A stretch of DNA of 17,485 nucleotides from Clostridia bacterium. GTDB taxonomy: Bacteria > Bacillota_A > Clostridia > Peptostreptococcales > JAAYPU01. The notes under the pieces are model-generated. The model was not told the DNA's origin and did no database searches. It saw only the letters and a list, made by a program, of their open reading frames with translations. Both the position numbers and the translations under genes were made by a program. Below are positions 2,942 through 17,485 of this stretch, in pieces (position 1 is the first letter of the stretch; each line of letters begins with the position of its first letter). The stretch covers positions 1-17,485 of the forward strand of contig JAKSCF010000648.1 in assembly GCA_022360735.1 (NCBI GenBank). The letters run 5' to 3'.

Positions 2942-4285
2942 ATGGTAGTTTTAGATTACATTGTGGGTTTAGGCGCAAGTGTAATGATGCCTATCATCAT
3001 TACTATTTTCGCAGTAGCTTTAGGTGCTAAATTTGGTAAATCTTTAAGGGCGGGCTTAACGGTTGGTGTTGGCTTTATAGGTCTTAACTTAGTAATTGGT
3101 TTATTGAGTCAAAGCTTAGGACCTGCCGCTCAAGAAATGGTTGGTAGATTGGGACTGCAATTAACAATTATTGATGTTGGCTGGCCGGCAGCGGCAGCAA
3201 TAGCATTTGCATCAAGAGTTGGTGCATTGATCATACCTTTGGGGCTGGCTATAAACATTATTATGTTATTAACCAATACCACCCAAACGGTTAACATCGA
3301 TATTTGGAATTACTGGCATTTTGCTTTTACAGGTGCTTTTGTAGCTGCTGTTACAAACAGTATTTCATGGGGATTGTTTGCAGCGGGAGTTAATATGATT
3401 ATCATTATGGTAATTGCTGATTTAACTGCTCCAGGTGTAGAGAAATATAATGGGTTACCGGGGATTTCTCTTCCTCATGGTTTTTCAGGTGCTTATGTAC
3501 CGATAGCAATAATCGTTAATAAAATACTAGACATCATACCGGGCATAAACAAAATTAATGTAGATGCAGAAAAGCTTCAAAAAAGATTTGGTGTATTTGG
3601 TGAACCCATATTAATGGGAACCATTATTGGATTTATTATAGGTATTGGAGCAGGATATAATGTTAAAGATATTCTTAACTTAGGAATAAAACTAGGTGCT
3701 GTACTGGTATTAATTCCTAAAATGGCGGCAATGTTAATGGAGGGACTCATTCCTGTATCTGATGCAGCTCAGGAATTTATAGAAAAACGGTTTAAAAATA
3801 GAGGTAAAATTTATATTGGATTGGATTCTGCGGTAGGAATAGGGCATCCGACTACCTTGTCTGTTTCATTATTACTTGTCCCAATAACCATTTTTTTAGC
3901 AGCAATATTACCAGGAAATAAAGTTTTACCCTTTGCAGATTTAGCAGTTATACCTTTTGCCTTGGTTATGGTTGTTCCGGTTACTAAAGGAAATGTTTTA
4001 AGGACATTTATCGTTGGATTATTAATTGTCTCTGCGGGCTTGTTAATAGCAACAAATCTTGCACCATTACATACGGAGTGTGCCATAAATGCAAATTTTG
4101 CTATTCCAGAAGGTGCAACGATGATTTCAAGTATTTGCGACGGAGCAAACCCTATGACATGGTCGATAACAAGATTAATGGAATTAGAGGTAGTTGGAGC
4201 TGTTGTGATTGGAGTTATAGCACTATTTTTGGCCATTTACAATAGAAAAAGAATTATCAAAGAAAGTGCAGCGGCAACAGAATAA
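2942..4285 (+). CDS. gatC: PTS EIIC component, galactitol family permease
   Basis: This 447-residue membrane permease forms the sugar channel of the Gat-type PTS. It is hydrophobic throughout, with roughly ten predicted membrane segments and a short charged C-terminal tail (RKRIIKE). Family features include the N-terminal VVLDYIVGLGASVMMPIII helix, the GLPGISLPHGFSGAY loop after the first helix group, and GLDSAVGIGHPTTLS in the second half. Length matches GatC. The ATG follows AGGAGG (2931-2936). It is the last of the three transporter genes and is followed after 63 bp by a sugar-phosphate aldolase-type enzyme, so the imported sugar phosphate is probably handled by that enzyme. Confidence 0.92.
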   Translation: MVVLDYIVGLGASVMMPIIITIFAVALGAKFGKSLRAGLTVGVGFIGLNLVIGLLSQSLGPAAQEMVGRLGLQLTIIDVGWPAAAAIAFASRVGALIIPLGLAINIIMLLTNTTQTVNIDIWNYWHFAFTGAFVAAVTNSISWGLFAAGVNMIIIMVIADLTAPGVEKYNGLPGISLPHGFSGAYVPIAIIVNKILDIIPGINKINVDAEKLQKRFGVFGEPILMGTIIGFIIGIGAGYNVKDILNLGIKLGAVLVLIPKMAAMLMEGLIPVSDAAQEFIEKRFKNRGKIYIGLDSAVGIGHPTTLSVSLLLVPITIFLAAILPGNKVLPFADLAVIPFALVMVVPVTKGNVLRTFIVGLLIVSAGLLIATNLAPLHTECAINANFAIPEGATMISSICDGANPMTWSITRLMELEVVGAVVIGVIALFLAIYNRKRIIKESAAATE

Positions 4286-4297
4286 CCGGACACACAA

Positions 4298-4318
4298 TTA
4301 TACACATCAAGTGTATGA
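4298..4318 (+). other. Small stem-loop between gatC and the aldolase gene
   Basis: ATACAC (4300-4305) pairs with GTGTAT (4311-4316) around ATCAA, extended by a U-G and a U-A pair. There is no T-run. It lies just upstream of the aldolase ribosome binding site (AGGGGG, 4337-4342) and may be an intercistronic structure. Its meaning is uncertain. Confidence 0.25.
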
Positions 4319-4348
4319 ATGGATAGGTATCCTAAAAGGGGGAATCAT

Positions 4349-13036: not shown

Positions 13037-13060
13037 AAATTAACATACATATTGGATGAT

Positions 13061-13078
13061 ACCAATTTTAAAATTGGT
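13061..13078. promoter_or_regulatory. Perfect 18-bp palindrome, candidate operator in the mocR leader
   Basis: ACCAATTTTAAAATTGGT equals its own reverse complement. It lies about 18-36 bases after the predicted transcription start and just before the ribosome binding site AAAGGA (13087-13092). The position suits a self-repression site. TTGGAT is also scattered nearby at 12925, 12977, 12996 and 13052. Confidence 0.55.
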
Positions 13079-13100
13079 TGATGTCGAAAGGACTTACAAC

Positions 13101-14612
13101 ATGGATATTAAAATTACAAGAAACAGCAGTACGCCGCTATACATACAAATTTATCATCAAATTCAAGAAGAAATACTGGCCGGGCGATTGCCTTCCGGTT
13201 ATCGTCTGCCGCCTGAGCGAAAATTAGCAGCAACGTTGAATGTAAACAGAAGCACCGTGCTGAATGCTTACAGAGAATTAAAAGCCAGTGGTTTGGTGGA
13301 TTCACAAGTAGGTAAAGGGACTATTGTGGCACAGCCTGCAACTTTTGGGGATGAAAATAATCAAAACATGGTCAACCCCATTTCCTGGGGACAAATTTAT
13401 AATCAAAATGCACATAAAAATAATGATTCCATTGTATTGGATTTAATAGAAATTACCAATAAAGCCGATATTATTTCATTTGCTGCCGGAATGGCTTCAC
13501 CGGAATTATATCCAATGGATGATTTAACTAAAATCACGGTAAAGGTGATGCAAGACTATGGATACAAAGCATTGGTGCATACCCCTATTGAAGGCCATGT
13601 GGGTTTACGAAACAGCATTAAGGCATTACAAGAAAGTATGGGGATTACATCTAAAATAGAGGAAATCATGATTTTATCCGGGTCTCAGCAAGGACTGGAT
13701 TTAATTGCCAGAGTATTGCTGGAAACAGGAGACACCATCCTTGTTGAAGAACCAACTTATTTAGGTGCTTTACAGCTTTTCAGGAATATGGACGTAAGAG
13801 TTATTGGTGTACCAATTGATCAAAATGGTATGCGTATGGATATCCTTGAATCCCATATCATTCGATATAAACCAAAGTTAATCTATACCATGCCTACTTT
13901 TCAAAACCCTACAGGGGCCGTCATGAGTTTAGAAAGACGTAAGAAATTGCTTGATTTAGCTTATTACTTTGAAATACCAATCATTGAAGATGATGCGTAT
14001 GGCTTTCTCAGGTATGATGGAGAAACTTTACCTACCCTAAGAGCCATGGATAGTTATGGTTATGTTTTATACCTCAATACTTTTTCTAAAATATTATTTC
14101 CGGGGTTGAGAGTTGGTTGGTTTACGATTCCAAGGGCAGTAGTTAAACAATTTGCTCTGGCAAAGCAAAATATAGATATTCATACCAATAGTTTAAGTCA
14201 ATGGATTTTAAACCAATATATTACCGAGAAATTGTTATCAAGTCATTTAGAAAAGGTTAAGAAAGCGTATTTGAAGCGTAGGGATTGCATGTTGAATGCT
14301 TTACAAAAATATCACCCCAGCGGAGTGACCTGGAATGTCCCGGAAGGGGGATTATATATTTGGTGTAAATTACCCGAAAATATTGATGCTTCAAAAATAT
14401 TGATTAGTGCCGGCAAACATAATGTTGCTTTTGTACCCGGAGAGACATTTTACTCAGCAAGACAAGGCAAAAATTATATGAGACTTAATTTTACATGCCC
14501 TAGTATTAAGGCAATTGAAAAAGGAATTAAATGTTTAATGACAATTATTAATGATGAAATCAATAGCGATAAGGAAAACACAACCTATATGGATACAACT
14601 CCAATTTATTAG
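13101..14612 (+). CDS. MocR-family transcriptional regulator (GntR HTH fused to PLP aminotransferase domain)
   Basis: This 503-residue fusion regulator has an N-terminal GntR-type winged helix (about 8-75: STPLYIQIYHQIQ, SGYRLPPERKLA, NVNRSTVLNAYRELKASGLV), a linker of about 40 residues, and a fold-type I aminotransferase domain. Here K330 in NTFSKILFPGLR is the PLP lysine, and IIEDDAYGFLRY holds the pyridine-binding Asp. MocR proteins use the PLP domain to sense an amino acid, amine or vitamin and usually control a neighbouring gene. ATG 13101 has AAAGGA eight bases upstream and the HTH starts right after; an upstream in-frame ATG at 13056 has no ribosome binding site and would run through the palindrome. 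The next gene, 25 bp downstream, is a related aminotransferase and the likeliest target. Confidence 0.92.
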   Translation: MDIKITRNSSTPLYIQIYHQIQEEILAGRLPSGYRLPPERKLAATLNVNRSTVLNAYRELKASGLVDSQVGKGTIVAQPATFGDENNQNMVNPISWGQIYNQNAHKNNDSIVLDLIEITNKADIISFAAGMASPELYPMDDLTKITVKVMQDYGYKALVHTPIEGHVGLRNSIKALQESMGITSKIEEIMILSGSQQGLDLIARVLLETGDTILVEEPTYLGALQLFRNMDVRVIGVPIDQNGMRMDILESHIIRYKPKLIYTMPTFQNPTGAVMSLERRKKLLDLAYYFEIPIIEDDAYGFLRYDGETLPTLRAMDSYGYVLYLNTFSKILFPGLRVGWFTIPRAVVKQFALAKQNIDIHTNSLSQWILNQYITEKLLSSHLEKVKKAYLKRRDCMLNALQKYHPSGVTWNVPEGGLYIWCKLPENIDASKILISAGKHNVAFVPGETFYSARQGKNYMRLNFTCPSIKAIEKGIKCLMTIINDEINSDKENTTYMDTTPIY

Positions 14613-14637
14613 ATAAAAAAAGTAAAGGAGGATAAAA

Positions 14638-15828
14638 ATGAAAGTTCAATTGGCTAACAGAATGAATTCTATTCAAGCATCTGAGATAAGAGAGTTATTG
14701 AAGTTAACAGAAAAACCCGAAATCATATCCTTTGCAGGAGGGCTGCCTGATCCAAACGTTTTTCCTATAGAAGAGCTTAAAAAAATAGCTTGTTCCGTTT
14801 TGGATGAAACCGGAAAAGAAGCTTTACAATATGCCCCAACAGAAGGATATACGCGTTTAAGAAATCAAATATCGCAAAGGATGAATAAAAGATTTGGCAC
14901 TCAATTAACAGGCAGCAACATATTGATTACAAGCGGCTCTCAGCAAGGTTTGGATTTATCCGGAAAAATATTTTTAAATGAAGGGGATACCATTTTATGC
15001 GAAAGCCCCACCTACTTGGGAGCGATTAATGCATTCAATGCTTATAAACCCAGATATATTGAGATACCTACAGATGAAAGTGGTATGGATATACAGGCAT
15101 TAGAAAAAACATTATTAAATGAGAAAAAAATCAAATTGATCTATGCCATACCTGATTTTCAAAACCCAACCGGCAGAACCTGGTCGGAAAAAAGACGTCG
15201 GCAATTTATGCAGGTAATGCGCCAATATGATATACCTGTTATTGAGGATAATCCTTATGGAGAATTAAGATATGAAGGGACGCCTATACCGTCTCTTAAC
15301 GCGTTAGACCATAGAGGTCAAGTGATTTTTTTGGGTACATTCTCAAAGACGTTTTGTCCAGGTCTTCGATTAGGATGGGTGGCAGCCGATGAAGCTACGC
15401 TAAAACATTATATTTTATCGAAGCAAGGTTTAGACTTGCATACATCCTCTCTCAGCCAAAGAGAATTATCGAGATTTTTAGAAATTTATGATATGGATAC
15501 CCATATAGATAAAATTAGAAATGTATATAAGCGGCGCAGAGATTTAATGATTAATACCATGAAATCAACTTTTCCTCAAGAAATACATTATACAGAACCA
15601 AATGGCGGCTTATTTTGCTGGGTAACGGTGCCTGAGTATATTGATACAAAAGAAGTATTAATAAAAAGCATCAAAAATAATGTCGCCTTTGTTCCGGGTG
15701 AATCTTTCTATCCTAATAGTAAAAAGAAAAATACTTTAAGGCTTAATTATTCAAATGCTTCAGACGAAAACATAGTGATCGGCATCACAAGACTGGCTAA
15801 AATGCTAAATGAATTTATAAAACATTAA
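14638..15828 (+). CDS. PLP-dependent class I/II aminotransferase (2-aminoadipate/LysN-like)
   Basis: This 396-residue cytoplasmic fold-type I aminotransferase resembles the LysN/2-aminoadipate and aromatic aminotransferase subgroup. Visible motifs are ISFAGGLPDPNVFP near the N-terminus, QYAPTEGYTRLR, SGSQQGLDL, PDFQNPTGR (PLP contact Asn), VIEDNPYGELRY (PLP-ring Asp) and the Schiff-base K237 in GTFSKTFCPGLRLGW. The C-terminal substrate Arg lies in TLRLNYS. It shares most of these motifs with the C-terminal domain of the preceding MocR protein, so the two are paralogous. AAAGGAGG (14624-14631) precedes the ATG by six bases, and the 25-bp gap implies cotranscription. The amino donor and acceptor cannot be read from the sequence. 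Confidence 0.9.
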   Translation: MKVQLANRMNSIQASEIRELLKLTEKPEIISFAGGLPDPNVFPIEELKKIACSVLDETGKEALQYAPTEGYTRLRNQISQRMNKRFGTQLTGSNILITSGSQQGLDLSGKIFLNEGDTILCESPTYLGAINAFNAYKPRYIEIPTDESGMDIQALEKTLLNEKKIKLIYAIPDFQNPTGRTWSEKRRRQFMQVMRQYDIPVIEDNPYGELRYEGTPIPSLNALDHRGQVIFLGTFSKTFCPGLRLGWVAADEATLKHYILSKQGLDLHTSSLSQRELSRFLEIYDMDTHIDKIRNVYKRRRDLMINTMKSTFPQEIHYTEPNGGLFCWVTVPEYIDTKEVLIKSIKNNVAFVPGESFYPNSKKKNTLRLNYSNASDENIVIGITRLAKMLNEFIKH

Positions 15829-15952
15829 TTGAGAATTTTACTTCCTTTCAGGTGAAAGACAACAACTATGCAATTGAATGCAGGGTGTATAAATATTTGT
15901 TTTTCTTATATTGTAGATTTTCTAAAAGCTACAATTATTTCTACATAATTAT

Positions 15953-15961
15953 TGTTATAAT
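15953..15961 (+). promoter_or_regulatory. Extended -10 promoter of the leader-rlmA unit
   Basis: TGTTATAAT is a perfect TGnTATAAT extended -10 element. No good -35 hexamer stands 16-18 bp upstream, which is usual for extended -10 promoters. Transcription would start near 15968, giving about 28 bases before the leader ORF. An imperfect inverted repeat, GTAGATTTT/AAAAGCTAC (15913-15932), lies just upstream. Confidence 0.6.
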
Positions 15962-15995
15962 TATAGATGAGAATATGGATAAGGAGGTAGTCTTT

Positions 15996-16022
15996 ATGAT
16001 TATGTATATTAGATTAAGATAG
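15996..16022 (+). CDS. Leader peptide MIMYIRLR, putative macrolide-arrest sensor
   Basis: A nine-codon ORF (ATG ATT ATG TAT ATT AGA TTA AGA TAG) has a very strong ribosome binding site, AAGGAGG (15981-15987), eight bases upstream. It ends one base before a hairpin switch and 73 bp before the rRNA methyltransferase start. The Arg-Leu-Arg ending is the +X(+) motif known to stall macrolide-bound ribosomes, as in the MRLR segment of the ErmD leader. Inference: with drug, the ribosome stalls with Leu7 in the P site and Arg8 in the A site, which changes folding of the RNA downstream. The ORF and ribosome binding site are seen directly; drug sensing is inferred from motif and context. Confidence 0.82.
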   Translation: MIMYIRLR

Positions 16023-16083
16023 CACCGCGAGTTATTTGCGGTGTATCCGTATTATATAACTCGCTTTTTCGAATTATATAATA
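16023..16083 (+). promoter_or_regulatory. Transcription attenuator with three competing hairpins upstream of rlmA
   Basis: Hairpin A pairs CACCGC (16023-16028) with GCGGTG (16038-16043). Hairpin B pairs GCGAGTTAT (16027-16035) with ATAACTCGC (16056-16064) and is followed by TTTTT (16065-16069): an intrinsic terminator. Hairpin C pairs TATTATATAA (16050-16059) with TTATATAATA (16074-16083). A and C can coexist, but each overlaps one arm of B, so A plus C is an antiterminated state. The methyltransferase ribosome binding site GGAGG (16086-16090) stays outside all stems. A ribosome stalled on the leader would cover up to about 16030, blocking the 5' arm of B and so allowing read-through. The pairings are seen; the switching mechanism is inferred. 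Confidence 0.82.
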
Positions 16084-16095
16084 TTGGAGGATAAT

Positions 16096-16929
16096 ATGAA
16101 TAAAATCTTAAAATTTAGTAACAGCGAAAAATTTCTTAAATGCCCAATTTGCAATGAGGAATTAGTCCTTAGTAAAATGAGTTTGTACTGTACTAACAAA
16201 CATTGTTTTGATGTATCAAATTCAGGATATGTAAATTTAACTCTAAATAATAGAAAACAGACATACAACAAAGACTCATATCTTAATAGAAGAGCGGTTT
16301 TCAATACAGGATATTACTCACATATACTACAAGAAGTTATAAATACATTGGCAAGTATAAACACTGTCAAGACAATTCTTGATGTAGGTTGTGGAGAAGG
16401 CTATTACTCAAGAGAAATTTACAAAAAACTTAGGAAAGAAATAATTGCATTTGATATCTCAAAGGATTCAATCCAAATGGCATCAAAAATTGATTTGAGT
16501 GATTCAATTAAATGGTTTGTCGGCGATTTAACACAGCTCCCAATAAAGGACAATTGCATTGATTGTATACTGGATATTTTTTCACCAGCCAACTATTCTG
16601 AATTTAGAAGGGTATTGGTAGAGGCTGGATATATTATTAAGGTTATTCGAGGAAACATGCACATGGTAGAGCTACGTAATATAGTAAGTGAATATTTGAG
16701 AAATCAAGAATACTCAAATGAACGTATTATCTCGTTGTTTAAAGAGAATTGCTCATTTATATATCAAAAGAACGTTTCTGCTTCATATGAAATTACGAAT
16801 GACAAACTTCAAGTATTTACCAAGATGACTCCACTTTTATTTAATATGAGTATGAATCATAAAAAACATGAATTTGTTGAGATACCTAGTCTAACAATTG
16901 AAGGTGAGATATTACTGGGTAAAGTTTAG
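16096..16929 (+). CDS. rlmA: RlmA-family 23S rRNA (guanine-N1) methyltransferase
   Basis: This 277-residue SAM-dependent methyltransferase belongs to the RlmA family, which methylates N1 of G745 (RlmA-I) or G748 (RlmA-II, e.g. TlrB) in 23S rRNA helix 35 near the macrolide-binding tunnel. The N-terminal zinc ribbon is C16-P-I-C19 with C32 and H36/C37, followed by FDVSNSGYVNL as in RlmA. The SAM motif is ILDVGCGEG (94-102), with D119 of AFDISK likely contacting ribose. DIFSPANYSEFRRVL and KMTPLLFN correspond to family-specific segments. ATG 16096 has GGAGG five bases upstream; an in-frame TTG at 16084 lies before that ribosome binding site. The Gram-positive context suggests the G748 type, and the drug-responsive leader suggests a role in macrolide tolerance; both need testing. 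Confidence 0.85.
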   Translation: MNKILKFSNSEKFLKCPICNEELVLSKMSLYCTNKHCFDVSNSGYVNLTLNNRKQTYNKDSYLNRRAVFNTGYYSHILQEVINTLASINTVKTILDVGCGEGYYSREIYKKLRKEIIAFDISKDSIQMASKIDLSDSIKWFVGDLTQLPIKDNCIDCILDIFSPANYSEFRRVLVEAGYIIKVIRGNMHMVELRNIVSEYLRNQEYSNERIISLFKENCSFIYQKNVSASYEITNDKLQVFTKMTPLLFNMSMNHKKHEFVEIPSLTIEGEILLGKV

Positions 16930-16935
16930 TTTATG

Positions 16936-16979
16936 CATGTCCGAGTTTTTACTGTCTAATTATAAGTTTCTTTACTTTA
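16936..16979 (+). repeat. Left terminal inverted repeat (44 bp)
   Basis: The repeat begins CATGTCCGAGTTTTTACTG and ends TTTCTTTACTTTA. All 44 bases are the reverse complement of 17442-17485; the next inner base differs (A against G). Such length and identity cannot be chance. Confidence 0.93.
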
Positions 16980-17060
16980 ATATTTATACGATTCATGCTT
17001 ATGTCAGTAAAAAATTGCATTTAAATATCCGCTAGTTTAACATATAGCACAGTAATTCCT

Positions 17061-17372: not shown

Positions 17373-17441
17373 ATTTGATTTAGACTTATTTATATATACT
17401 TTGTCCCTGGTTACAGCTTCGCTGGTACTACCCCTAAATAC

Positions 17442-17485
17442 TAAAGTAAAGAAACTTATAATTAGACAGTAAAAACTCGGACATG
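17442..17485 (-). repeat. Right terminal inverted repeat (44 bp, at window edge)
   Basis: This is the exact reverse complement of 16936-16979 and ends in AAAACTCGGACATG at the last base of the window. The repeat might extend further, although the base preceding the left copy (G16935) can only be compared with sequence beyond the window. Confidence 0.93.

Follow-up and report, generated by a model that had tools for sequence, protein, structure and literature searches.

Could a short open reading frame of nine codons, ending in Arg-Leu-Arg, act as the drug sensor of the rRNA methyltransferase gene that follows it? An earlier note on this DNA proposed as much from the sequence, suggesting that the encoded peptide senses macrolides and induces an rlmA gene. 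We examined the whole 17,485-nt stretch (hereafter, the window), in which the leader, helices, and methyltransferase gene described below lie on the plus strand. The leader at 15996..16022 encodes MIMYIRLR (ATG ATT ATG TAT ATT AGA TTA AGA TAG, with the stop codon at 16020-16022), and its Shine-Dalgarno (SD) sequence AAGGAGG (15981..15987) is separated from the ATG at 15996 by an 8-nt spacer, TAGTCTTT. Reading the sequence thus bore out the proposed leader in every particular: its SD, its spacing, its coordinates, and the +X+ arrest motif, here RLR, at its C-terminus. Further upstream, TGTTATAAT (15953..15961) resembles an extended -10 promoter element and, judged by eye, is suitably placed to serve the leader; the sigma-70 scan, which requires both hexamers, did not call it. 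To set the leader against chance, we generated 20,000 dinucleotide-shuffled versions of the 267-nt intergenic region at 15829-16095. An ORF of 5-20 residues ending in R/K-x-R/K appeared in 106 of these when any start codon and a loose SD were allowed, and in 4 when an ATG and a strong SD were required; one ending in RLR, with ATG and strong SD, appeared once. On the strength of the 4 in 20,000 we rejected a chance ORF: the window leader is more than chance.

The gene behind the leader (16096..16929, preceded by the SD sequence GGAGG at 16086..16090) encodes a 277-aa RlmA-family 23S rRNA (guanine-N1) methyltransferase, so that domain matches agree with the earlier note on this point as well. 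The protein carries both the zinc ribbon (PF21302, 44.8 bits, cut-off 27) and the SAM methyltransferase domain (PF13649, 48.7 bits, cut-off 27) by which family membership was judged, matches the solved structure of RlmA (PDB 1p91, E 7.4e-25), and has zinc-ribbon residues C16, C19, C32, and H36 that are invariant in 22 aligned sequences. It did not reach the cut-offs of the RlmA(I) equivalog PRK11088 of NCBIfam (154.6 bits, cut-off 303) or of the Erm(32) model (77.7 bits, cut-off 550). In a tree of 39 chosen proteins, the window protein groups with P0002, P0020, L001, L053, L054, and P0018 (100/99). This group belongs to a 14-row clade (95/96) whose named members include homologues from Streptococcus mitis, Clostridium tetani, and Companilactobacillus; the Priestia and Lysinibacillus proteins stand apart from this clade. 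From its position in the tree, the enzyme is likely RlmA-II, the TlrB type that methylates G748 and protects against tylosin, rather than RlmA-I. P0001 is 99% identical to the window protein. As for its surroundings, a MocR/PdxR-like regulator gene and then a second aminotransferase gene, whose product matched no GntR domain, occupy 13056-15828, and the product of a neighboring gene, P0241, has its nearest named relatives in Alkalithermobacter and Tepidibacter (62%).

The identity of the gene bears on one rival explanation, amino-acid attenuation, in which the ribosome would pause on the leader when charged Arg or Leu tRNA runs short. RLR does hold two arginines and one leucine, and the RNA can form competing helices, as described below. 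However, three codons are few for sensors of this kind, and the gene encodes an rRNA methyltransferase rather than a biosynthetic enzyme. We consider amino-acid attenuation the least credible of the explanations weighed here, and extremely unlikely.

A leader of this kind should recur in relatives if it matters, and the earlier note had pointed to a search for conserved RLR leaders upstream of other rlmA genes. We scanned 350 nt upstream of those distinct RlmA-like proteins for which 150 nt or more of preceding DNA was available, requiring a strong SD (L053 and L091 had too little upstream DNA and were left out). A leader was present ahead of 9 of 65 proteins, window included, and only 1 of 137 control ORFs from the same loci; the nine represent six different leader peptides, with some near-identical variants among them. 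At 39.5% identity to the window protein or above, 7 out of 12 proteins had a leader; it was absent in L020, L024, L025, L059, and L070, all but L059 being 40-45% identical. The expectation therefore holds for most close relatives and fails for five. A scan of genome contigs returned 13 loci, including 11 full-length relatives at 51-52% identity, and all 11 carried the leader MTAHMRLR. Across a wider scan of 97 loci with a protein match, some of which are the same place fetched twice, we found the RLR-ending leaders MIMYIRLR (window), MTAHMRLR, MTAYMRLR, and MVTFMRLR, as well as MSIAFIRLR, MGISFRRLR, and a GTG-started MIIQFIRLR in remote clades. MSIAFIRLR (L028) has a weak SD only and is outside the nine strong-SD leaders, and we excluded doubtful leaders from the loose scan (two 4-residue TTG ORFs in L048 and GTG ORFs ending in RLK in L030). 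The RLR-stop is constant across distinct leaders and the first residues vary, and the RNA flanking MTAHMRLR, MTAYMRLR, and MVTFMRLR is the same as in the window. If the leader had arisen by chance or were a relic that senses no drug, the five leaderless relatives would be readily explained, but the shuffles, the constant RLR-stop behind varying first residues, the conserved helices, and the resistance genes next to one relative (L002, see below) all argue against this, and we hold it to be very improbable.

The earlier note was aware of no worked example of an inducible leader for an RlmA homologue. This was wrong. In Bacillus subtilis, tylosin-dependent stalling at the RYR of the leader MIIQFIRYR induces tlrB (yxjB, RlmA-II), on evidence that includes a toeprint, an AYA mutant, a terminator, and an SD-sequestering hairpin (Yakhnin et al. 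2019, PMC6851288). The tlrB leader responds to tylosin and not to erythromycin, control acts through both termination and SD hiding, and 180 leaders with a C-terminal R/K-X-R/K are predicted ahead of tlrB homologues in Gram-positives (PMC6851288). With this precedent the main claim to novelty falls, and we rejected the description 'first RlmA example'; the surprise of the window leader is accordingly limited, and the functional guess of a macrolide-sensing leader is plausible. The tlrB system resembles the window in its RlmA-family gene, its short leader with RxR directly before the stop, and its terminator and SD-hiding hairpin, both of which are predicted in the window, and differs in its RYR motif and nine residues (RLR and eight in the window); no overlapping antiterminator is identified there, whereas the window has three competing helices.

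These competing helices lie between leader and gene and were missed in the earlier reading of the locus, of which the leader and gene part stands. By fold prediction and alignment, helix H1 (16022..16044) pairs 16022-16030 with 16036-16044, and helix H2 (16027..16064) pairs 16027-16035 with 16056-16064 and, as an inner part, 16037-16041 with 16047-16051. A run of five T residues (T5, 16065..16069) directly follows H2 and makes it terminator-like in the window. Helix H3 (16046..16088) pairs 16046-16059 with 16074-16088 and takes in the opening bases of the gene's SD. H2 is incompatible with both of the other helices, which can form side by side. In an alignment of nine rows and five leader types, window included (A3), H2 was paired in 99.3% of 134 cells, with two pairs showing changes on both sides, and H1 plus H3 in 95.6% of 160 cells. 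Sliding the helices by 1-3 columns lowered pairing to 31-54% and 26-54%, respectively. For H2, four of five measures were reached in 8 of 500 shuffles and the remaining one in 52 (unremarkable); for H1 plus H3, three were reached in 15 of 500 and two were unremarkable (66 and 470 of 500), and since the A3 rows are related and few, these counts are not probabilities. No Rfam family matched the window at its gathering score; the best weak match in 15900-16110 was osmY (15.6 bits vs 46.9).

From these elements we infer how stalling, inducer, switching, and the methylated base might fit together. In the absence of drug, the leader would be translated and the ribosome released, after which the nascent RNA can form H2, in the window a terminator-like structure with T5. 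RNA that escapes would refold into H1 and H3, and H3 would hide the gene's SD. When a macrolide binds the tunnel, the ribosome would stall while holding Leu7 in its P site, with Arg8 waiting in the neighboring A site, and would cover the RNA to about 16030. The 5' arm of H1 would then lie under the ribosome stalled at RLR, and covering it would take away both this arm and the base of H2; we propose that the terminator is thereby spoilt. The upper part of H2 would meanwhile occupy the 5' arm of H3, so that the SD stays free, and the enzyme produced would methylate 23S rRNA in or close to the macrolide site. We propose that a ribosome-mediated attenuator of this kind, a variant of those known from tlrB, ermD, and mef, probably makes the RlmA-family 23S rRNA methyltransferase gene macrolide-inducible.

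The same sensor could instead work purely at the level of translation, with T5 incidental and H2 not terminating. In ermC-type translational attenuators, a stalled ribosome shifts 1:2/3:4 pairing to 2:3; the attenuator proposed for the window shares this stalled-ribosome logic, and the arrest motif and enzyme of ermC differ. A purely translational switch would fit the conservation of H1, H2, and H3 without the U-tract: T5 after H2 is found in the window only among the leader types seen, and in its place the others have TTATTGGG, TTATTGAAG, TTTCGGGC, or TATTGCAG. A terminator scan also found none in the region, with a loop limit of 8 that excludes H2. However, H2 ends exactly at T5 in the window, and tlrB uses both levels (PMC6851288). 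Folding predictions speak to both sides. For a window transcript truncated shortly after the U-tract, folding from the stop codon onward favored H2 (0.99), which counts against a purely translational switch; when the fold began at the leader start, H1 prevailed over H2 (0.82 vs 0.18), a modeled result that speaks against termination. We regard the purely translational switch as a serious contender that is nevertheless somewhat improbable, and continue to favor the reading in which termination takes part.

We also folded six of the nine A3 rows (window, L001, L021, L022, L054, and L103) with the stalled ribosome represented as a mask. Masking to P+13 or P+15 removed H1 and favored the upper H2 in the truncated transcript in 6 out of 6 rows. 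The full-length transcripts gave a less uniform picture. For the window, the ribosome-free prediction was H1 at 1.0 and an openness of 0.1-0.3 for bases one to three of the SD; masking to P+15 gave no clear opening (0.27-0.46), and at P+13 and P+11 the first SD G was 0.83-0.85 open and the next three bases 0.05-0.07. Upon masking, the SD opened clearly in L001, depended on the mask in L021 and L022 (closed at P+15), and gave a mixed result in L054 and L103. Ribosome-free and read from the leader start, L021, L022, and L103 preferred H2 with the SD largely open, and L001 and L054 were mixed, so that in these five the OFF state is not predicted from the leader start. Read from the stop codon, it is predicted in L001, L021, and L022 and less so in L054 and L103. 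The energies are therefore mixed across rows and support the switch in part, and the switch is backed by conservation more than by energies.

If the architecture is as proposed, the inducer might still be a different tunnel or peptidyl-transferase drug (a ketolide or lincosamide) or one restricted group of macrolides, such as that of tylosin. This is suggested by the response of the RYR leader of tlrB described above and by the Listeria hflXr leader rli80, which has RLR and responds to lincomycin and erythromycin (PMC6310831). The hflXr system resembles the window in its RLR motif, its alternative terminator/antiterminator, putative in the window, and its ribosome-directed resistance gene, and differs in its 14-residue leader and HflX GTPase gene. 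The residues before RLR also differ within the window's own group (MIMYI vs MTAxM). On the other side, a further report gives the mef(E) leader as MTASMRLR and the erm(K)/erm(D) leaders as MRLR, and the mef(E) and erm(K) MRLR-type peptides respond to erythromycin-type drugs (PMC4335068); the window, for its part, has IRLR. The mef(E)/mef(A) peptide described there is nearly identical to MTAHMRLR and MTAYMRLR of the window's relatives, but the gene and the RNA are different. We place an inducer of one of these kinds a little short of an even chance. An erythromycin-type sensor (MRLR) may also control an enzyme from a group known for tylosin protection, in which case the inducing drug and the drug protected against would not match; a comparison of the two would be informative because MRLR leaders elsewhere sense 14/15-membered drugs and RlmA-II is known for tylosin.

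To follow the RNA across genomes, we ran a covariance model of the attenuator RNA (R1) with Infernal's stricter filters. Matches to the window protein occurred in 27 of 391 genomes of a class draw (E to 1e-40), 20 of 397 of a family draw (E to 1e-50), and 22 of 398 of a phylum draw (E to 1e-40). R1 matched in 4 of the 391 class-draw and 19 of the 397 family-draw genomes, or 22 distinct genome handles (G001 is in both draws), and each match lies directly ahead of an rlmA-like gene by coordinates; the copy in G585 reaches the contig end, where an rlmA begins. In the family draw, R1 missed one of the 20 genomes in which the protein had matched, G628. Its locus, L059 (53% identity), has ATGAGATTAAGAT just ahead of the start codon, an MRLR-like remnant, with the hairpins absent (R1 23.4 bits, E 0.016); from its sequence, the attenuator stretch looks to have been lost in nature, a natural loss of control. 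We rejected the idea of a general module ahead of many genes, given that the R1 matches of the 22 genome handles all precede an rlmA-like gene and that a single plasmid exception was found, and that of an RNA shared with mef(A), given R1 scores of 18.9 bits (E 0.14) and 20.3 bits (E 0.07) on two mef(A) phage loci.

The RNA architecture differs from that of B. subtilis-like leaders: with E values up to 1 allowed, R1 matched none of L028, L029, and L085, which serve as stand-ins for the B. subtilis locus itself and were called B. subtilis-like by peptide (MIIQFIRLR, L085) and sequence reading. Clostridia also carry tlrB-like leaders of the B. subtilis kind upstream of the gene (L085, L028, and L029), and in L085 the GTG-started leader is followed by a terminator-like stretch, GGTACAG/CTGTGCC-TTTTTT. 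In open-licence PMC texts, we found MTAHMRLR, MTAYMRLR, MVTFMRLR, and MIMYIRLR printed in no main text, and neither these texts nor the beginnings of abstracts yielded a published report of this attenuator RNA.

Several relatives of the window locus are on mobile elements. Specifically, in L002 an IS3 transposase gene is followed by that of a Mef(A)-like pump (542 bits against a cut-off of 675), then by the leader, rlmA, blaACI (an ACI beta-lactamase, 675 bits, above the cut-off of 640), and a gene resembling recombinases (best model 130 bits, short of its cut-off). Among the genes of L001 are those of a primase-like protein and a MobQ relaxase (238 bits, above the cut-off of 200); L130 has a serine recombinase and MobA/MobL, and L131 a resolvase/recombinase and DUF5720; on a Priestia plasmid, a remote rlmA adjoins a predicted msr(I). 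No mobile-element gene was found among the eight L129 proteins scanned, and none was noticed among the listed ORFs of the window, four of whose proteins were profile-scanned. Searches with the leader DNA gave no match in the phages searched, no match for the L001 leader in the plasmids searched, and only weak partial plasmid matches, mostly in Spiroplasma, for the window leader; viral pattern scans returned one contig. Two further observations concern the surroundings of such units. Right after the window's rlmA, a MITE-like 51-nt inverted repeat (16936-16986 and 17435-17485, 98% complementary, 448 nt apart) ends at the contig end. In L090 (1075-2000), the leader-rlmA unit from IMG/VR seems, by eye, to interrupt a recombinase-like frame just ahead of the leader.

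The plasmid exception is L103, pHD0315_2-5 of Paraclostridium bifermentans, where the leader RNA (3201-3310; 84.7% over 59 nt, E 3e-9; leader MIINFMRIR, with a C-terminal RIR) precedes not an rlmA but an RlmN/Cfr-like radical-SAM gene (3311-4330; TIGR00048, 261.6 bits, cut-off 290). Beside this gene, the plasmid carries a predicted tetB(P) and genes for HflX and for a Mef(A)-like pump (350.7 bits against a cut-off of 675). By eye, a short ORF behind an SD and ending in RLRG (1751-1798) lies ahead of hflX, and another, MNAKQAVIIFGI (350-388), also behind an SD, ahead of the Mef(A)-like gene; from the sequence, three consecutive resistance-type genes may each have a leader of their own. Genes related to the L103 radical-SAM gene also occur beside leader-rlmA units, directly ahead in L129 (65% identical) and about 2.8 kb ahead on IMG/VR contig 2639762957 (63%). 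Among nine radical-SAM loci scanned, an RxR leader was found at L103 only; within 350 nt ahead of the gene it was absent at the other eight (L129, L133-L136, and L138-L140). R1 gave no match on L133-L137 and 13.3 bits (E 0.27) on L139.

Taken together, we tentatively suggest, as a possibility slightly less probable than its opposite, that this attenuator RNA, which no Rfam family matched, represents a portable family. It would sense macrolide-stalled ribosomes through leaders ending in [M/I]R[L/I]R-stop, and clostridial mobile elements would have carried it between genes for different 23S rRNA methyltransferases, RlmA-like ones and in one instance an RlmN/Cfr-like one. What is added here to the tlrB precedent is a second conserved RNA architecture, the placement of several relatives among mobile resistance genes, and a single example with another 23S methyltransferase; the 180 predicted leaders may include the window type. 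If the proposed attenuator operates, inducible control of RlmA would extend from Bacillus to mobile elements of gut Clostridia, a second RNA architecture would do the same job as the tlrB leader, and rlmA-like genes would be candidate mobile macrolide-resistance genes.
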